From a virus: a stretch of DNA of 21,409 bases. The DNA is taken from positions 1 through 21,409 of IMG/VR virus record IMGVR_UViG_3300021438_000073, one strand, 5' to 3'. The notes below the pieces were generated by a model. That model saw nothing but the letters and a program-made list of their open reading frames with translations, made no database searches and was not told where the DNA came from. Below are positions 811 to 20,180 of the stretch, piece after piece. Position 1 is the first letter of the stretch, and each line of letters begins with the position of its first letter. The position numbers and the translations under genes were made by a program.

Positions 811-1101
811 CTAATCGTCATTATAGGGCTTGCGAGCAGTGTTGGGTGACCGATAGGTTGGATCGAAGTCTAAAACATTCTCACATGGAACCATGTATTC
901 TTTGCCTTCGCGCAAGCGAGCTGCCATGTATTGAGCCTTCTTTTGCATCCCTTTATGGACAAAATACTTCCACCAATCCTCTGCCGATTGGTCTCCAGCT
1001 CTGACCATGTGACCAATTTGGTCACCGTCTGAGCGTTGTTTCATAAAATACAAGGCTTGTTCTTCGAACTTGCCTAACGCTACTTCTCGTTGTTTGCCCA
1101 T
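811..1101 (-). CDS. Hypothetical protein, 96 aa
   Basis: I do not recognise this family. It is a soluble, charged protein with aromatic patches (DWWKYFVHKGMQKKAQYMAA, about residues 42-61). It overlaps the 3' end of the replication-type gene upstream by 22 bp, so it is probably translated by coupling with it. A role linked to replication is possible from position only. Confidence 0.65.
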   Translation of the reverse strand: MGKQREVALGKFEEQALYFMKQRSDGDQIGHMVRAGDQSAEDWWKYFVHKGMQKKAQYMAARLREGKEYMVPCENVLDFDPTYRSPNTARKPYNDD

Positions 1102-1700
1102 AGTTCTTCCATCCTTTTGTAATGTTCTTGCAAAAATGCGTCTTGCTCTTCCTTGGTTTTAGGCTTCGCTGGCTCGTCAACCAGCTCATCCAGCCACCTC
1201 TCAGCGTTTAGCCACGTGCTGGCATGTGGCACGTAGTCTGGCTCTGGAAAGCCCTTGCTACCCTTCCATGCCTCCAGCCTCGCCAGAATGGTCTCTGGCT
1301 CTGCCTTTTTGATCGCCTTTGCATAAGCCTTCTGTGCTGCTCCTTTACCCACCTTCCGTGGGTAAGCAGACCAGAATTGATGAAAAGATGATGAGGGGGA
1401 AGTTAAGGAAGGGGGGGATATGTTATTAATATATTCACTGGGGGGGAAACCATTAGAAGGGGGAGAAGAAGGTAACGTTACTGAAACGTTACATAACGTT
1501 ACGTCACGTGACATAACGTGACCAGCAGTCTTTTCCCTATGCCTTCTTTGCCTATCCCTAGCTTTTTCCCTGACACGTTCCAACGCTTCGCTCTCAATGT
1601 TTTTGACCTCATCGGCAACAACCTGAGTAACGGCAAGCATCTGCTCTGGAGAGCAGCCTTTCTCCACCATGATAGCCAGCACCTTTGTGATGATGCTCAT
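1080..1700 (-). CDS. Putative phage replication protein with an origin-like linker
   Basis: A 206-aa protein in three parts. Residues 1-55 are helical and end in a basic stretch (REKARDRQRRHREK). Residues 58-108 are a low-complexity Ser/Pro/Val/Thr linker. Residues 109-165 carry the block FWSAYPRKVGKGAAQKAYAK followed by a PHASTWLNAERWLDE motif. That C-terminal block recurs in phage proteins annotated as replication initiator or DnaT-like. The call as a replication protein is an inference from this motif and from the repeat array lying in the linker, as in lambda O. The ATG at 1700 is 3 bp after the stop of the regulator gene, behind GGGGTAA. Confidence 0.6.
   Translation of the reverse strand: MSIITKVLAIMVEKGCSPEQMLAVTQVVADEVKNIESEALERVREKARDRQRRHREKTAGHVMSRDVTLCNVSVTLPSSPPSNGFPPSEYINNISPPSLTSPSSSFHQFWSAYPRKVGKGAAQKAYAKAIKKAEPETILARLEAWKGSKGFPEPDYVPHASTWLNAERWLDELVDEPAKPKTKEEQDAFLQEHYKRMEELWANNEK
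1395..1522. other. Candidate replication origin inside the replication gene
   Basis: Within 130 bp lie five phased 8-bp repeats (1474-1522), an 18-bp stretch with a single G that is otherwise only A and T (1418-1435), and four runs of G on the plus strand (1395-1399, 1411-1417, 1440-1446, 1459-1463). Repeats beside an AT-rich, easily melted stretch within an initiator-type gene is the arrangement of lambda-type origins. This is an inference from layout; no origin activity is shown by sequence alone. Confidence 0.45.
1473..1522. repeat. Five iteron-like repeats with 10-11 bp period
   Basis: AACGTTAC at 1474-1481, 1485-1492 and 1495-1502, then the variants CACGTGAC at 1505-1512 and AACGTGAC at 1515-1522. 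Start-to-start spacing is 11, 10, 10 and 10 bp, one turn of the helix, so every copy faces the same way. Copies one and four extend to perfect palindromes (GTAACGTTAC, 1472-1481; GTCACGTGAC, 1503-1512). They encode the Val/Thr-rich linker of the replication-type protein. Confidence 0.75.
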
Positions 1701-2031: not shown

Positions 2032-2250
2032 ATGAAACAAGAAACTGAACGCAATCTACAGTACTTGAGCAACATGCACACAGTGCTGGAAATGGCAAAA
2101 CACGGACTTTACAGCTTGCAGCCGCAGCAGATGAGCCGTGAGGTGTTAGCGATCTATGCTGATATGTTACATGGCCTGAACCTTCTGCAAATAGACATAC
2201 AGAGCGCAAGCTTTGACATCAAAAACGGAAGACCAAGAGGAGAAGGCTAA
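2032..2250 (+). CDS. Hypothetical protein, 72 aa
   Basis: First gene of the rightward operon. A helical protein without a domain I recognise. The frame is open further upstream, but only a TTG lies there, inside the -35 box. The ATG at 2032 follows GAGGGG at a suitable distance and lies downstream of the promoter, so it is chosen as the start. The stop overlaps the start of the exonuclease gene (TAATG at 2248-2252). Confidence 0.65.
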   Translation: MKQETERNLQYLSNMHTVLEMAKHGLYSLQPQQMSREVLAIYADMLHGLNLLQIDIQSASFDIKNGRPRGEG

Positions 2251-3170
2251 TGGCTAGTGGTGGACACATAATTGGAGAAGGCTTTGCGCCAGAGGACCGT
2301 AAGAACGCATGGTGGGCTACAGACTCGAGACGGGCAGTTTCGGGTCAGCTCCTTGACGTGCTGCTGGAAAAGCGGGGCGAGAAGGAACGTGCTGATTTAT
2401 CAGGCATCGAAGCGGTACAAATGGGCCTCTTTCTGGAAAGCGCAATCGGGCGGTTGTGGGAAGAACAGACTGGAATATCAGTTCGTGATCTTGACGTAGC
2501 TGGTACGCACAGCACAGAACCCTGGCTACGAGCACATGGTGACTTCTGGACTGGTGACAAGGGATTGCTGGAAGTTAAAAACTTTGGGGATCACCAGTAC
2601 AAAAAATACCCTGAGATGGACGACCATTGGAGCAAGCTGCCTGAACAGGACATTGTGCAGTGCATCCATGAGGCGACAGTTTTTGACGTGGACCATATTT
2701 ACTTTGCGGTGTTGTTTGGCGGTCAGCGGTTTCGTTGGTGGCGTATAGACGTTACGCCTGAGATGAAGACAGACTTTATCCAGCGTGCTGCCGGCTGGTG
2801 GGCGATGCACAAGACAGGGCAACTGCCAAGCCCAGAGACGGTCGAACAGGCTCAGTCGATCTACCGCAAAGATGACGGCACAAGCATGATGGCGACTAAA
2901 GTGATCGAGGAATATGTCGAGGCTTTGCGTCATCTGAAAGCACAGATCAAGGATCTGGAAGCCAAAGAAGAGTTTGCACAGGCAAAACTCATGGCTTTCA
3001 TGGGTGAAAAGGCTGAGCTGGTCAATGTGGCTGGTGATATTCTGGTGACATGGAAGACAGCTAAGGCATCTAAACGGTTCAACGCCAAGCGTTTTGAACA
3101 GGAAAATCCTAAACTTTATGAGCAGTATAAAGATGAAACAGCAGGCTCAAGACGCTTCCTCGTCAAATAA
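2250..3170 (+). CDS. YqaJ-like phage recombination exonuclease
   Basis: A 306-aa protein of the YqaJ/lambda-exonuclease type, which digests one strand of a DNA end so that an annealing protein can pair the exposed strand. Visible motifs: MGLFLESAIGRLWEEQTG (about residues 58-75, with the early glutamate at 63), then GDFWTGDKGLLEVKNFG with D98 and the E108-x-K110 pair of the PDDEXK core, then the VQCIHEATVF stretch (about 136-145) matching the conserved Q-x-x-H/M helix of this family. Residues 215-250 form a likely coiled coil. It is translationally coupled to the gene before it. The annealing-type protein at 4113 is the natural partner. Confidence 0.85.
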   Translation: MASGGHIIGEGFAPEDRKNAWWATDSRRAVSGQLLDVLLEKRGEKERADLSGIEAVQMGLFLESAIGRLWEEQTGISVRDLDVAGTHSTEPWLRAHGDFWTGDKGLLEVKNFGDHQYKKYPEMDDHWSKLPEQDIVQCIHEATVFDVDHIYFAVLFGGQRFRWWRIDVTPEMKTDFIQRAAGWWAMHKTGQLPSPETVEQAQSIYRKDDGTSMMATKVIEEYVEALRHLKAQIKDLEAKEEFAQAKLMAFMGEKAELVNVAGDILVTWKTAKASKRFNAKRFEQENPKLYEQYKDETAGSRRFLVK

Positions 3171-3321
3171 ACCGAGGTTAAAGAAGTATGAACAATACGA
3201 GACAGACACTCATAAAGTCGTCATTCTTGTTGATACAGAAACAAACGGTAACTTGTATGCCGAAGCACACGTTACTCCGAAAGTGAAGTCAAATGATTAT
3301 CGTTCACAAATCATTATCTGA
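3133..3321 (+). CDS. Hypothetical protein, 62 aa
   Basis: Overlaps the exonuclease 3' end by 38 bp. It begins with a Gln/Ser/Lys-rich segment and ends in a beta-like stretch (THKVVILVDTETNGNLYAEA). The start is uncertain: ATG at 3118 is in frame too and neither has a strong ribosome site. It fills an otherwise empty gap in a tightly packed operon, which is the main support. No function assigned. Confidence 0.45.
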   Translation: MKQQAQDASSSNKPRLKKYEQYETDTHKVVILVDTETNGNLYAEAHVTPKVKSNDYRSQIII

Positions 3322-3811
3322 ATATGAAAAATATAAGACTTGCAGAGAGGGATATTGGAAGATTGAAGAAAATAAATATGGCTTTAGTGCATTAAAAAAA
3401 TATGGAAAATATTCTCATCACGAAGAGCACCATAGACCACATACGAAATTAGATAACTGTAAAATGTGTAAACGGTTATTTAATAAAAGCTGGCTTAAAT
3501 ACAATCGTTTTGTTCGCACGAGGGCGGAAGCTTTTGAGAAAGTATTTTACGATGATGGTTTTTATTGCACTGGTTGTTATACCAAAGTTGAAGCTTACAA
3601 TCGTAAATTAAATGAACTCATAGAAACTAAACGCATCATATACAAATTATTAAAGGAGATAAAACATGTCGAAAAGCATCAAAACAGCGGGCGATCTGCG
3701 GGAGTTTCTCATCAACATGATGATTGGAGTGAAGAACGGGCATCAAGAGCTGGAGAGCGCACGAGCTATTGTAAAGATAGCGGGTCAAATCAACGAGTCA
3801 CTATATGCTGA
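3293..3811 (+). CDS. Zinc-ribbon-like protein, AT-rich, with an overlapping tail
   Basis: Residues 1-125 are rich in Lys, Tyr, His and Glu and carry two CxxC pairs, CKMC (about residue 56) and CTGC (about residue 97), spaced as in a zinc ribbon. I do not recognise the family; HNH-type or DNA-binding roles are possible but no HNH motif is seen. Bases 3293-3660 are clearly more AT-rich than the genes on both sides. From 3666 on, the frame only reads across the next gene (146 bp overlap) and turns into Ser/Arg/His-rich sequence with no sign of selection. This suggests a recently acquired gene whose original stop has been lost. Confidence 0.55.
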   Translation: MIIVHKSLSEYEKYKTCREGYWKIEENKYGFSALKKYGKYSHHEEHHRPHTKLDNCKMCKRLFNKSWLKYNRFVRTRAEAFEKVFYDDGFYCTGCYTKVEAYNRKLNELIETKRIIYKLLKEIKHVEKHQNSGRSAGVSHQHDDWSEERASRAGERTSYCKDSGSNQRVTIC

Positions 3812-3899
3812 AATCAAAGCAGCCAAGATGAATTTAGATGCTGGCAAAGAAGCCGCAGCATTAGGTTATCTTCCTATTGGTAAAGTTGAAATTGAATAA
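3666..3899 (+). CDS. Conserved small helical phage protein, 77 aa
   Basis: The ATG at 3666 follows a strong AAAGGAG site. The protein is almost all helix (DLREFLINMMIGVKNGHQEL, then ARAIVKIAGQINESLYAEIK) and ends ALGYLPIGKVEIE. I recall similar small phage proteins next to recombination genes but no known function. The strong ribosome site and regular composition make this the real gene where it overlaps the tail of the zinc-ribbon ORF. Confidence 0.7.
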   Translation: MSKSIKTAGDLREFLINMMIGVKNGHQELESARAIVKIAGQINESLYAEIKAAKMNLDAGKEAAALGYLPIGKVEIE

Positions 3900-3910
3900 G
3901 GATTGGCAAA

Positions 3911-4138
3911 ATGATGAAGACAGAAGTTAGATTATTTAACGAAAAAACCAAATCAATGCTGACGTTTACTGATTGTGGCGATGGTGACATGGTCGTCATT
4001 GTTACAAACAACAGCCAAGCGGCAGCAGCGTATTTTCCTTTGAAAGACATTTTTGATTTCATCTCAAAGGTTTACGACATCGAGTTATTAAAAGATCAAG
4101 AGGGAGACGAAGATGAGCAATCTAATTCCGGTCAATGA
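3911..4138 (+). CDS. Hypothetical protein, 75 aa
   Basis: A small acidic protein with a beta-rich first half (EVRLFNEKTKSMLTFTDC, MVVIVTN) and a C-terminal helix followed by an acidic tail (DQEGDEDEQ). ATG at 3911 or 3914, behind AAGGA. It overlaps the annealing-protein gene by 26 bp, so the two are probably coupled. No family recognised. Confidence 0.6.
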   Translation: MMKTEVRLFNEKTKSMLTFTDCGDGDMVVIVTNNSQAAAAYFPLKDIFDFISKVYDIELLKDQEGDEDEQSNSGQ

Positions 4139-4853
4139 CATGAGAAGTATGGCGCAAGCCATTGTTAAGTCAGGGTTTTACGGGTTTAAGTCTGAGGATC
4201 AGGTCATGGCTATCATGGCTGTTGCTCAGGCTGAGAACAAGCACCCAGCAACGGTTGTGCAGGAATACGACATTATCCAAGGTCGTCCTGCTCTTAAGTC
4301 ACAGGCAGTGCTGGCTCGCTTCCAGCTTGCAGGTGGCAAGGTTGAGTATGGCACATATACCGATGACAAGGTGGAAATGACATTCTCACACCCTGCTGGT
4401 GGCACTCTGACGCTATCTTGGACCATGAAACAAGCACACGACATTGGGCTTGCCAAGAAGGATAACTGGAAGAACTATCCACGCGCCATGCTGGCTGCTC
4501 GTGTGATCTCTGAAGGTGTACGTCGCGTATACCCTGCTTGCATCCTTGGTCATTATGCCGTGGAAGAAGTGATGGACTTCGATAAACCTTTTAACAAGGA
4601 ACCTGTGCAGATTGCTCAGATTGAGCTGGCAGAGGAGATTGAGGAAGACCACACTGGCAAGCTTCCCCTGTACATTCCAGACGGTAATGGTGATCGCAAG
4701 GTTCACATGTGGGTCAACGAAGATGGTTGGCCTGATGCTTACATGGAATTGACCGAGCGCATCAGTGACTCGAAAAAACTTTCTGACGAGGAAAAGAGTT
4801 CTCGTTTGATCCAGCTCTCAACAGTTAACAAAGACATATTGGAGAAAATGTAA
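4113..4853 (+). CDS. Putative single-strand annealing protein (RecT/Red-beta-like)
   Basis: A 246-aa protein. Its core matches a phage family I associate with RecT-type recombinases: an N-terminal MAQAIVKSGFYGFKSEDQVM helix pair, then IIQGRPALKSQAVLARFQLA (about 54-73), a beta hairpin, a DNWKNYPRAMLAARVISEGV block (about 120-139) and a VYPACILGHYAVEEVMDF end. The C-terminal third (about 160-246) is variable and acidic. Such proteins coat single-stranded DNA and anneal complementary strands. Its place between the exonuclease and the SSB-like protein supports the call. The start follows AGGGAGACGAAG. Confidence 0.65.
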   Translation: MSNLIPVNDMRSMAQAIVKSGFYGFKSEDQVMAIMAVAQAENKHPATVVQEYDIIQGRPALKSQAVLARFQLAGGKVEYGTYTDDKVEMTFSHPAGGTLTLSWTMKQAHDIGLAKKDNWKNYPRAMLAARVISEGVRRVYPACILGHYAVEEVMDFDKPFNKEPVQIAQIELAEEIEEDHTGKLPLYIPDGNGDRKVHMWVNEDGWPDAYMELTERISDSKKLSDEEKSSRLIQLSTVNKDILEKM

Positions 4854-5104
4854 TGGCTAAGAAATTAGGTTTTGGGTCGCTGCGGGTTAATGACAAGAAG
4901 CAAATGCCTTCTCACCCAGACTATACAGGCTTTGTGATCCTGTCTGAGGACGCTAAGGCAGGTGATGAGATCAAGCTCGGCGCTTGGAAGAATGACTATA
5001 ACGGCATCAATCTCAAGCAAAACACTTGGAAGCCAGACGGTCAGCAGCAGCAGGCTTACCCACGTCCGATTGGCAAGCACAGCGACTCGGAAGTCCCCTT
5101 CTGA
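4853..5104 (+). CDS. Small ssDNA-binding-type protein with SSB-like C-terminal tip
   Basis: Only 83 aa. It has a beta-rich body (SHPDYTGFVILSEDAKAGDE, then KLGAWKND), a Gln-rich linker, and ends DSEVPF. That last hexapeptide resembles the acidic DDDIPF tip by which bacterial SSBs recruit replication and repair proteins. It lies between the annealing protein and the junction resolvase and overlaps both (TAATG and TGATG). A full OB fold would be tight in about 65 residues, so it could instead be an adaptor that mimics the SSB tip. The function is inferred from tip and context. Confidence 0.55.
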   Translation: MAKKLGFGSLRVNDKKQMPSHPDYTGFVILSEDAKAGDEIKLGAWKNDYNGINLKQNTWKPDGQQQQAYPRPIGKHSDSEVPF

Positions 5105-5602: not shown

Positions 5603-5961
5603 CGATATCAATGGACAAACAATACCGCACCAGAGACGGGCGGGAAGTGCGGATTTATGCGGTGGATGGCGGGGCGGATAATGACCTGATTCACGGCGCG
5701 GTTAAAGATGTAACTGGGTGGGATCTTTTCGTATGGCGGCATACTGGATGCTACAAATGGGATTGTTCAGAAAGTGAACATGACCTCATAGAAGTCAAAC
5801 CCCGCATCCAGCGTGAACTGTGGATGAATGTGTATCATAAATGTACCGGCGTTGGGCATGAAACGAAAGAAAGCGCCGACCAAGCACATGCGGTAAATGG
5901 CGAACCTCGTTTAGCCTGTGTCAAAATCACAATAGACTGCGAAGAAGGGGAGGGATTGTAA
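5599..5961 (+). CDS. Conserved phage protein of unknown function, 120 aa
   Basis: Begins (after a possible alternative ATG at 5611) QYRTRDGREVRIYAVDGG and ends ITIDCEEGEGL. I recall this pattern, with the central HDLIEVKPRI and NVYH segments, from many phages of Proteobacteria where it is annotated only as hypothetical. Predominantly beta, with no catalytic motif seen. It overlaps both neighbours (ATGA before, TAATG after), so it belongs to the coupled early operon. Confidence 0.75.
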   Translation: MTISMDKQYRTRDGREVRIYAVDGGADNDLIHGAVKDVTGWDLFVWRHTGCYKWDCSESEHDLIEVKPRIQRELWMNVYHKCTGVGHETKESADQAHAVNGEPRLACVKITIDCEEGEGL

Positions 5962-6431
5962 TGAACAAAAGAAAATTTGTCACCTCTGCCATCTGGCCTG
6001 ACAAGCATAAGCAGATATTGCTTGAAATGCACGCAGCAGGACACACAGCTCTGGAGATCGCCATCAAGCTTAACAGAACACGCAACTCGGTCATAGGCTT
6101 TATTCATCGTTCTGGACTATCCAAGAGCAGGCCAAAGAAGCCAGTAGCACCTAAAGTCGAACGCAAGCCACAAGAACTTAAACCTGCAACGGTACACAAA
6201 CTATTTCCTAAACCTATCGTTGAAGTAAAGAAACCCAAATCAACGGACGGAGTGTTATTCGTCTTTACAACCAATAGAAATTGTAAATACATAGAAGGTG
6301 AGCCCGACGGGGCTAATACACGGGTCTGCGGCAAAAGATCTATGACGGGCAAGAGCTGGTGTTTCGAGCATCATGCTTTAGTCTATAACAAGCAACCAGT
6401 ACTTAACTTTAGGGGTCAATTACATGGCTAA
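5961..6431 (+). CDS. GcrA-family cell-cycle regulator homologue
   Basis: A 156-aa protein with the two-part design of GcrA. Residues 8-54 form a helix-turn-helix (WPDKHKQILLEMHAAGHTAL, then NRTRNSVIGFIHRSGLS). A basic/Pro linker follows (about 55-100). The C-terminal region carries CKYIEGEPDGANTRVCG and SWCFEHHALVY, matching the GcrA C..G.P....F.FCG....YC..H pattern. In Caulobacter and relatives GcrA binds sigma-70 polymerase and activates promoters bearing methylated GANTC. A phage copy may redirect host transcription or mimic the host cell-cycle state. No GANTC site was found in the promoters marked here. Strong sign of an alphaproteobacterial host. Confidence 0.8.
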   Translation: MNKRKFVTSAIWPDKHKQILLEMHAAGHTALEIAIKLNRTRNSVIGFIHRSGLSKSRPKKPVAPKVERKPQELKPATVHKLFPKPIVEVKKPKSTDGVLFVFTTNRNCKYIEGEPDGANTRVCGKRSMTGKSWCFEHHALVYNKQPVLNFRGQLHG

Positions 6432-19718: not shown

Positions 19719-20180
19719 ATGAAGCATTGTAAATGGTGTAAACAAGAAAAGCCACTGTCAGAATTTCATAAACATTTAAACATGAAAGACGGGTATTTAA
19801 ACAAATGCAAAGTTTGTTCTTATGAAGAACAAAAAGAATATAGAAAAACAGAAAAAGGAAAATTGGTAAGGGCGAAAGAAAAACAATATCCGGAAGCAAA
19901 AAAACGTTACAAACAAAGTGAGAAAGGGAAACTAAAAGCAACCCAATATAAAAGGCCAAAAGATAGGGAAGCTGCAAAAAATGCAGTGTCTTACGCATTG
20001 CGTTCTGGAAAGTTAATTCGACAACCATGCGAAATTTGCGGAAAAAAAGGTGAAGCTCATCATTGGTCTTATTTGCCTGAACATAGACTTGACGTGCAAT
20101 GGCTTTGTCGCCATCACCACAATCAACTCCATATTGAACAGTCAAATTTAAAATCATGGTCACACCGTGAAGGTCTATAA
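19719..20180 (+). CDS. Free-standing HNH endonuclease
   Basis: 153 aa. N-terminal zinc-binding part: CKWCKQEKPLSEFHKH, then CKVC (about 4-32). A long Lys/Glu/Tyr-rich basic linker (about 36-85). The C-terminal HNH core is PCEICGKKGEAHHWSYLPEH (about 104-123), then VQWLCRHHHNQLHIEQ. This is the usual build of mobile HNH endonucleases of phages. It is the only plus-strand gene in 14 kb of late operon and sits exactly between the 109-aa and 304-aa genes, overlapping the former's end by 6 bp. AGGAG is 6 bp from the ATG and a strong promoter precedes it. Probably a recently inserted selfish gene. Confidence 0.8.
   Translation: MKHCKWCKQEKPLSEFHKHLNMKDGYLNKCKVCSYEEQKEYRKTEKGKLVRAKEKQYPEAKKRYKQSEKGKLKATQYKRPKDREAAKNAVSYALRSGKLIRQPCEICGKKGEAHHWSYLPEHRLDVQWLCRHHHNQLHIEQSNLKSWSHREGL

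Follow-up and report, generated by a model that had tools for sequence, protein, structure and literature searches.

The initiator-like gene and its repeat array

The window, by which we mean the whole stretch of viral DNA analysed (21,409 bp), carries a minus-strand gene at 1080–1700 whose 206-aa product resembles phage replication initiators. Profile searches matched this protein to phrog_270 (1.9e-24), phrog_9327 (8e-19) and phrog_9474 (1e-13). The match to phrog_270, a replication initiation protein family, covers residues 91–190, that is, the C-terminal domain, and so bears out an earlier sequence-only reading that had likened this block to phage replication proteins. A Pfam search of the 206-aa protein gave no match, so the PF09681 profile is not matched. 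An AlphaFold model, used for local structure only because its pTM was low (0.29), placed helices at residues 3–13 and 18–60 (pLDDT mostly >85) and left the linker at 66–100 mostly below 50; a short helix is thus followed by a 43-residue helix ending in a basic motif, and then by a disordered linker. A fold search with this model returned no significant match. The features of the locus are as follows.

1080–1700, minus strand: 206-aa replication initiator-like protein with a helical N-terminus, basic motif, disordered linker and C-terminal FWxxYPRK domain
1395–1463, C on the coding strand: four C-tracts enclosing an AT-rich stretch (1418–1439); probable melting region
1472–1481, no strand: iteron 5 in coding order, GTAACGTTAC, a perfect palindrome
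1483–1492, no strand: iteron 4, GAAACGTTAC
1493–1502, no strand: iteron 3, ATAACGTTAC
1503–1512, no strand: iteron 2, GTCACGTGAC, a perfect palindrome
1513–1522, no strand: iteron 1, ATAACGTGAC, the unit closest to the basic motif
1530–1574, minus strand: basic motif VREKARDRQRRHREK, residues 43–57, the proposed DNA-binding helix
2250–5104, plus strand: neighbouring recombination genes for a YqaJ/RecE-like exonuclease, a RecT-like annealing protein and an SSB-like protein

From their sequence similarities, the genes at 2250–5104 fit a phage replication-recombination region, and the 21,409-bp fragment showed neither a helicase nor a polymerase gene. A phage-encoded GcrA-like cell-cycle regulator (5961–6431; PF07750, 1.6e-14) points to an alphaproteobacterial host. 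Elsewhere in the window, a GNAT acetyltransferase gene (125–727) shares its strand with the initiator gene, and an HNH-endonuclease-like ORF (19719–20180) lies on the plus strand between minus-strand genes.

The array at 1472–1522, about 180–230 bp into the initiator gene, consists of five tandem 10-bp units with the consensus GTMACGTKAC and encodes HVMSRDVTLCNVSVTL, residues 61–76 of the linker. The sequence-only reading had described five copies of an 8-mer spaced by 11, 10, 10 and 10 bp, which we reproduced on the plus strand; the repeat is real, but its unit is better described as a 10-bp near-palindrome. As two of the iterons are perfect 10-bp palindromes, the 8-mer matches the opposite strand too, and MACGTKAC occurred nine times on both strands of the window (1.55 expected; 0 of 100 shuffles reached nine). 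On the plus strand five copies fall within 60 bp, and shuffles reached two at most (3 of 2000 shuffles). The iteron cluster is far above chance expectation. All five units have GTMACG on the coding strand, where it is the better-kept half-site.

The element next to the iterons is an array of C-tracts, not a simple AT tract, with plus-strand complements G5 (1395–1399), G7 (1411–1417), G7 (1440–1446) and G5 (1459–1463) and a 22-bp AT-rich stretch between the two G7 runs. None of 2000 synonymous resamplings reached the four tracts of at least five C found in the window. Judging from its position, 1395–1463 is probably the melting zone.

We then asked at which level the repeat is constrained. When the gene was resampled synonymously with the phage’s own codon usage, the four TMACGTKA units observed were reached in only 2 of 200,000 trials. 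Since a spacing of 10 bp is not a multiple of 3, successive units fall in different reading frames (here 2, 0, 1 and 1). Resampling and frame use together indicate that the repeat is a feature of the DNA and the peptide largely its by-product, as the sequence-only reading had suspected for the Val/Thr-rich linker. That reading had also proposed an alignment of homologues as a check, and in distant relatives the repeat was indeed kept in the DNA where the peptide differed; across related loci, 83, 51 and 42 units fall in the respective frames, and 18 loci use all three.

Recurrence of the iteron and its partner motif

A three-unit pattern matched 26 stretches in viral contigs, many of them in linkers of replication-like ORFs, and a reversed control (CAKTGCA x3) gave 18 matches, none in an initiator-linker context as judged by reading. 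We dropped three-unit matches in bacterial genome contigs as evidence, these being mostly (CGTCA)n microsatellites; (CGTCA)n and (ACGTG)n repeats recur in many bacterial genomes (L057–L135), notably those of Streptomyces and Burkholderiales. A two-unit pattern, designed to avoid 5-bp microsatellites, matched at least 119 viral stretches. Among the matches listed there were 51 clusters, which by reading comprise about 40 initiator-like ORFs, 3 RNase H genes and 8 sites elsewhere. The same pattern was found in 0 of 385 alphaproteobacterial genomes, and a search with profile A1 in 1 of 289; no prophage set was obtained. BLAST with the repeat itself gave no match in phages and plasmids, and scanning the proteins of viral contigs with the N-terminus recovered few loci.

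Successive GTMACG half-sites in 59 linkers were spaced by 10 bp in 76 cases and by 11 bp in 18, again with the consensus GTMACGTKAC. Over 46 of these loci, 148 half-sites fell in 10.9 kb of linker compared with 8 in the remaining 24.8 kb of ORF sequence, counts that are biased upward in that most loci had been picked by DNA pattern. The cleanest test is therefore the set of PF09681 replisome organisers, which was chosen by protein: at least one exact TMACGTKA unit was present in 14 of 17 named phages, and phiS13 carried variant ACGT units. For the ACGT hexamer count in these phages the combined p was 6e-6, single loci often being individually weak. Altogether the iteron occurs in Staphylococcus, Streptococcus, Listeria, Enterococcus and probable alphaproteobacterial phages.

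In relatives the basic segment takes the form R-x2-N-x2-R-x3-[HYFQ]-R-x-K and lies nearly always just 5′ of the array, directly upstream and usually at most 20 codons away. An alignment of 24 diverse proteins showed one arginine in 24/24 and a second, five residues on, in 23/24. A motif model built from Firmicutes PF09681 proteins recognised 18 of 25 alpha-type proteins (p = 4e-12), the threshold being the 95% point of equally R/K-rich control segments, and scored the window motif above every such control; the reverse test, with a model trained on alpha-type proteins, recognised 16 of 19 Firmicutes proteins (p = 3e-13). By these model scores, the basic motif is common to the short alphaproteobacterial-type N-termini and the Firmicutes PF09681 replisome organisers. 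There are exceptions to the pairing. Bacillus phage 031MP004 has the motif and no units, a few arrays occur where the gene has no clear motif (L063, L118, L033), and in three cases the iterons lie inside an RNase H gene and not an initiator gene (L195, 4507–4527; L200, 2025–2064; L210, 11321–11341). L200 and L210 carry a separate helix-turn-helix-like gene about 1 kb from these iterons, and in L232, which has a PF09681-type initiator, an HNH-endonuclease-like domain is inserted between basic motif and array.

To see which half of the protein the array follows, we examined relatives sharing the C-terminal domain only. Half-site matches numbered 0 in 80alpha gp20, TP901-1 Rep, Paraburkholderia phage IPK (L037) and an Octadecabacter phage (L036), and 1 in a viral contig (L009); the corresponding linker of 80alpha, IPK and L009 contains palindromic repeats of other kinds. 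The unit being missing from such relatives, some of which have other repeats instead, the sequences indicate that the iteron type tracks the N-terminal and not the C-terminal half of the initiator. BLAST grouped the part upstream of the motif into 16 clusters and the C-terminal part into 22. Distant relationships surely exist within these 16, but clear N-terminal differences separate the short helical type, the PF09681 type and a few singletons. As far as these clusters can tell, C-terminal domains vary freely among proteins with the basic motif and array, and the replication start appears to be carried along within the initiator gene.

The flank of the array differs between groups. In most alpha-type genes, C5–C8 runs (coding strand) alternate with AT-rich words such as TATAA or TAAAGAAATTAA immediately 3′ of the array, the C-tracts exceeding what codon usage predicts, and a simple pattern indicates that G-quadruplex-like structures are possible on the other strand in 16 of 25 alpha-type linkers. 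The Firmicutes counterpart consists of GA/AT-rich hexamers, for example GATATAGATAAAGA, and is possibly a melting region as well. In five loci (L300, L301, L304, L308, L311) hexamer repeats such as GATATAGATAAAGA or ACAGATACAGAT follow the iterons on the 3′ side and encode the peptides DIDIDK or DTDTDT.

A candidate origin within the initiator gene

Our proposal, to which we give a probability of roughly three in four, is that the initiator gene contains a lambda-type origin, with the array as the part that the initiator binds. Such an intragenic origin had been suggested by the sequence-only reading and gains support from the phrog_270 match of the gene, from conservation at the DNA level and from a position like that of the lambda and 80alpha elements. 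The initiator would fold at its N-terminus into a helical hairpin whose long second helix ends in the conserved basic segment (residues 43–57), and this segment would bind the GTMACGTKAC units. With a 10-bp spacing the bound molecules would all sit on one face of the DNA and form a compact nucleoprotein array. The adjacent C-tract/AT-rich stretch would open, and the C-terminal domain would recruit the host helicase, a step suggested by the lack of a visible helicase or polymerase gene in the fragment. We infer each of these elements, from binding and the residues responsible for it to melting, helicase recruitment and origin activity. GC skew, another proposed check, changes sign near 1.5–2 kb, but gene orientation changes there too; because skew tracks gene orientation it is uninformative, and we rejected it as evidence.

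Among other explanations, the one that survives best, though we consider it unlikely, is that the array is an operator through which the initiator or another phage regulator controls transcription of the replication genes and not the start of replication. Palindromic 10-bp sites suit dimeric regulators, the array is some 180–230 bp inside the gene, and a small gene of repressor-like type (phrog_4738) is found just upstream. However, the site is well within coding sequence in all architectures and not at promoters, the interval 1300–2100 holds a single weak promoter-like match (chance level), and the array follows the initiator’s own N-terminal half across unrelated phages. Less probable still is that something other than the initiator binds the array, be it another phage factor or one of the host, such as a nucleoid or initiation protein. 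Such a factor would suit the three RNase H genes that carry an array but no basic motif, and the encoded protein is itself a proposed binder; yet a single host factor common to Staphylococcus, Streptococcus, Listeria, Enterococcus and probable alphaproteobacterial phages is hard to envisage, and the iteron tracks the encoded basic motif.

We give very little credence to the repeat being a by-product of selection for a Val/Thr-rich linker peptide, or a microsatellite-like expansion. The linker is of low complexity and bacterial three-unit matches were mostly microsatellites, but this reading is contradicted by the synonymous resampling and by the use of all three frames, the units differ among themselves in a way unlike a fresh expansion, and they recur at the same position in the gene; we regard it as already largely refuted. 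Least plausible of all are RNA hairpins acting in termination or translation control, since the terminator count, with one match (1492–1472, minus strand) against an expected 0.6, is close to that of shuffled sequence and a terminator needs no 10-bp phasing of adjacent self-complementary units.

Relation to known origins and initiators

The closest precedent for an origin at this position is that of phage lambda, in which iterons and an AT-rich tract lie in the middle of gene O; among lambdoid O genes, iteron number alters the length of the protein linker (PMC7466680). The window resembles oriLambda in having iterons, here the putative initiator-binding sites, in mid-initiator gene, and may share with it a strand-opening tract that follows them. 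It differs in its unit, which measures 10 bp, has ACGT as its core and leaves hardly any spacer, in its N-terminus, a helical hairpin with a basic segment at its end and no Pfam match, and in its putative melting zone, which is partly C-tract. Intragenic repeats between N- and C-terminal domains are likewise a feature of 80alpha ORF20 and SPP1 G38P. ORF20 is needed for initiation, and its authors propose an origin within the ORF20 gene (PMC5499656); a putative rep_origin is annotated in ORF20 in the 80alpha record. The C-terminal domain of ORF20 is common to the ACGT-iteron proteins, but its N-terminus is different and so are its palindromes (TTTTCCAACGTTGGAAAA, ACCGTTAACGGT). The PF09681 (Phage_rep_org_N) organisers of phi11, A500, phiEf11 and phage 55 carry the same basic motif with GTMACGTKAC-type units on its 3′ side. 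In contrast, the window protein has no PF09681 match, its motif is preceded by a helical hairpin only, and C-tracts stand 3′ of its array in place of the GA/AT-rich hexamers of the Firmicutes linkers.

Eukaryotic bZIP basic regions have an N-x7-R spacing within a basic helix facing an ACGT palindrome. The same spacing occurs in window-type basic motifs facing their ACGT palindrome, except that the dimerising part would here be N-terminal and not C-terminal. The motif profile had no match in PDB at E≤10 and motif members hit no bZIP family in Pfam, and homology to bZIP proteins was rejected for want of a sequence match to bZIP families or structures; a bZIP-like reading of ACGT by the basic helix is speculation by analogy. 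A broader version of our proposal is doubtful: a portable origin cassette, made up of the basic-helix segment and its own 10-bp ACGT iterons behind it, would have been swapped between unrelated initiator domains in phages of several bacterial phyla, its helix reading the ACGT palindrome in the major groove much as eukaryotic bZIP basic regions do, by convergence.

The principle of an intragenic origin is already known. We found no description of a GTMACGTKAC-type iteron in the literature searched, a search whose scope took in few of the older phage-origin papers, and provisionally the short iteron and its link to a common basic motif appear undescribed. If our reading is true, GTMACGTKAC arrays behind a basic helix would make origins recognisable in the sequences of a large number of temperate phages, among them those of Staphylococcus, Streptococcus, Listeria and Enterococcus and many uncultivated ones, and the odd Val/Thr-rich linkers (SRDVTLxNVT) would be explained as DNA sites read through three frames. 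The window type would then offer a clean case of a binding domain and its DNA sites travelling together, since the sites are contained in the gene that encodes the domain, and the co-evolution of initiator and origin would become testable.
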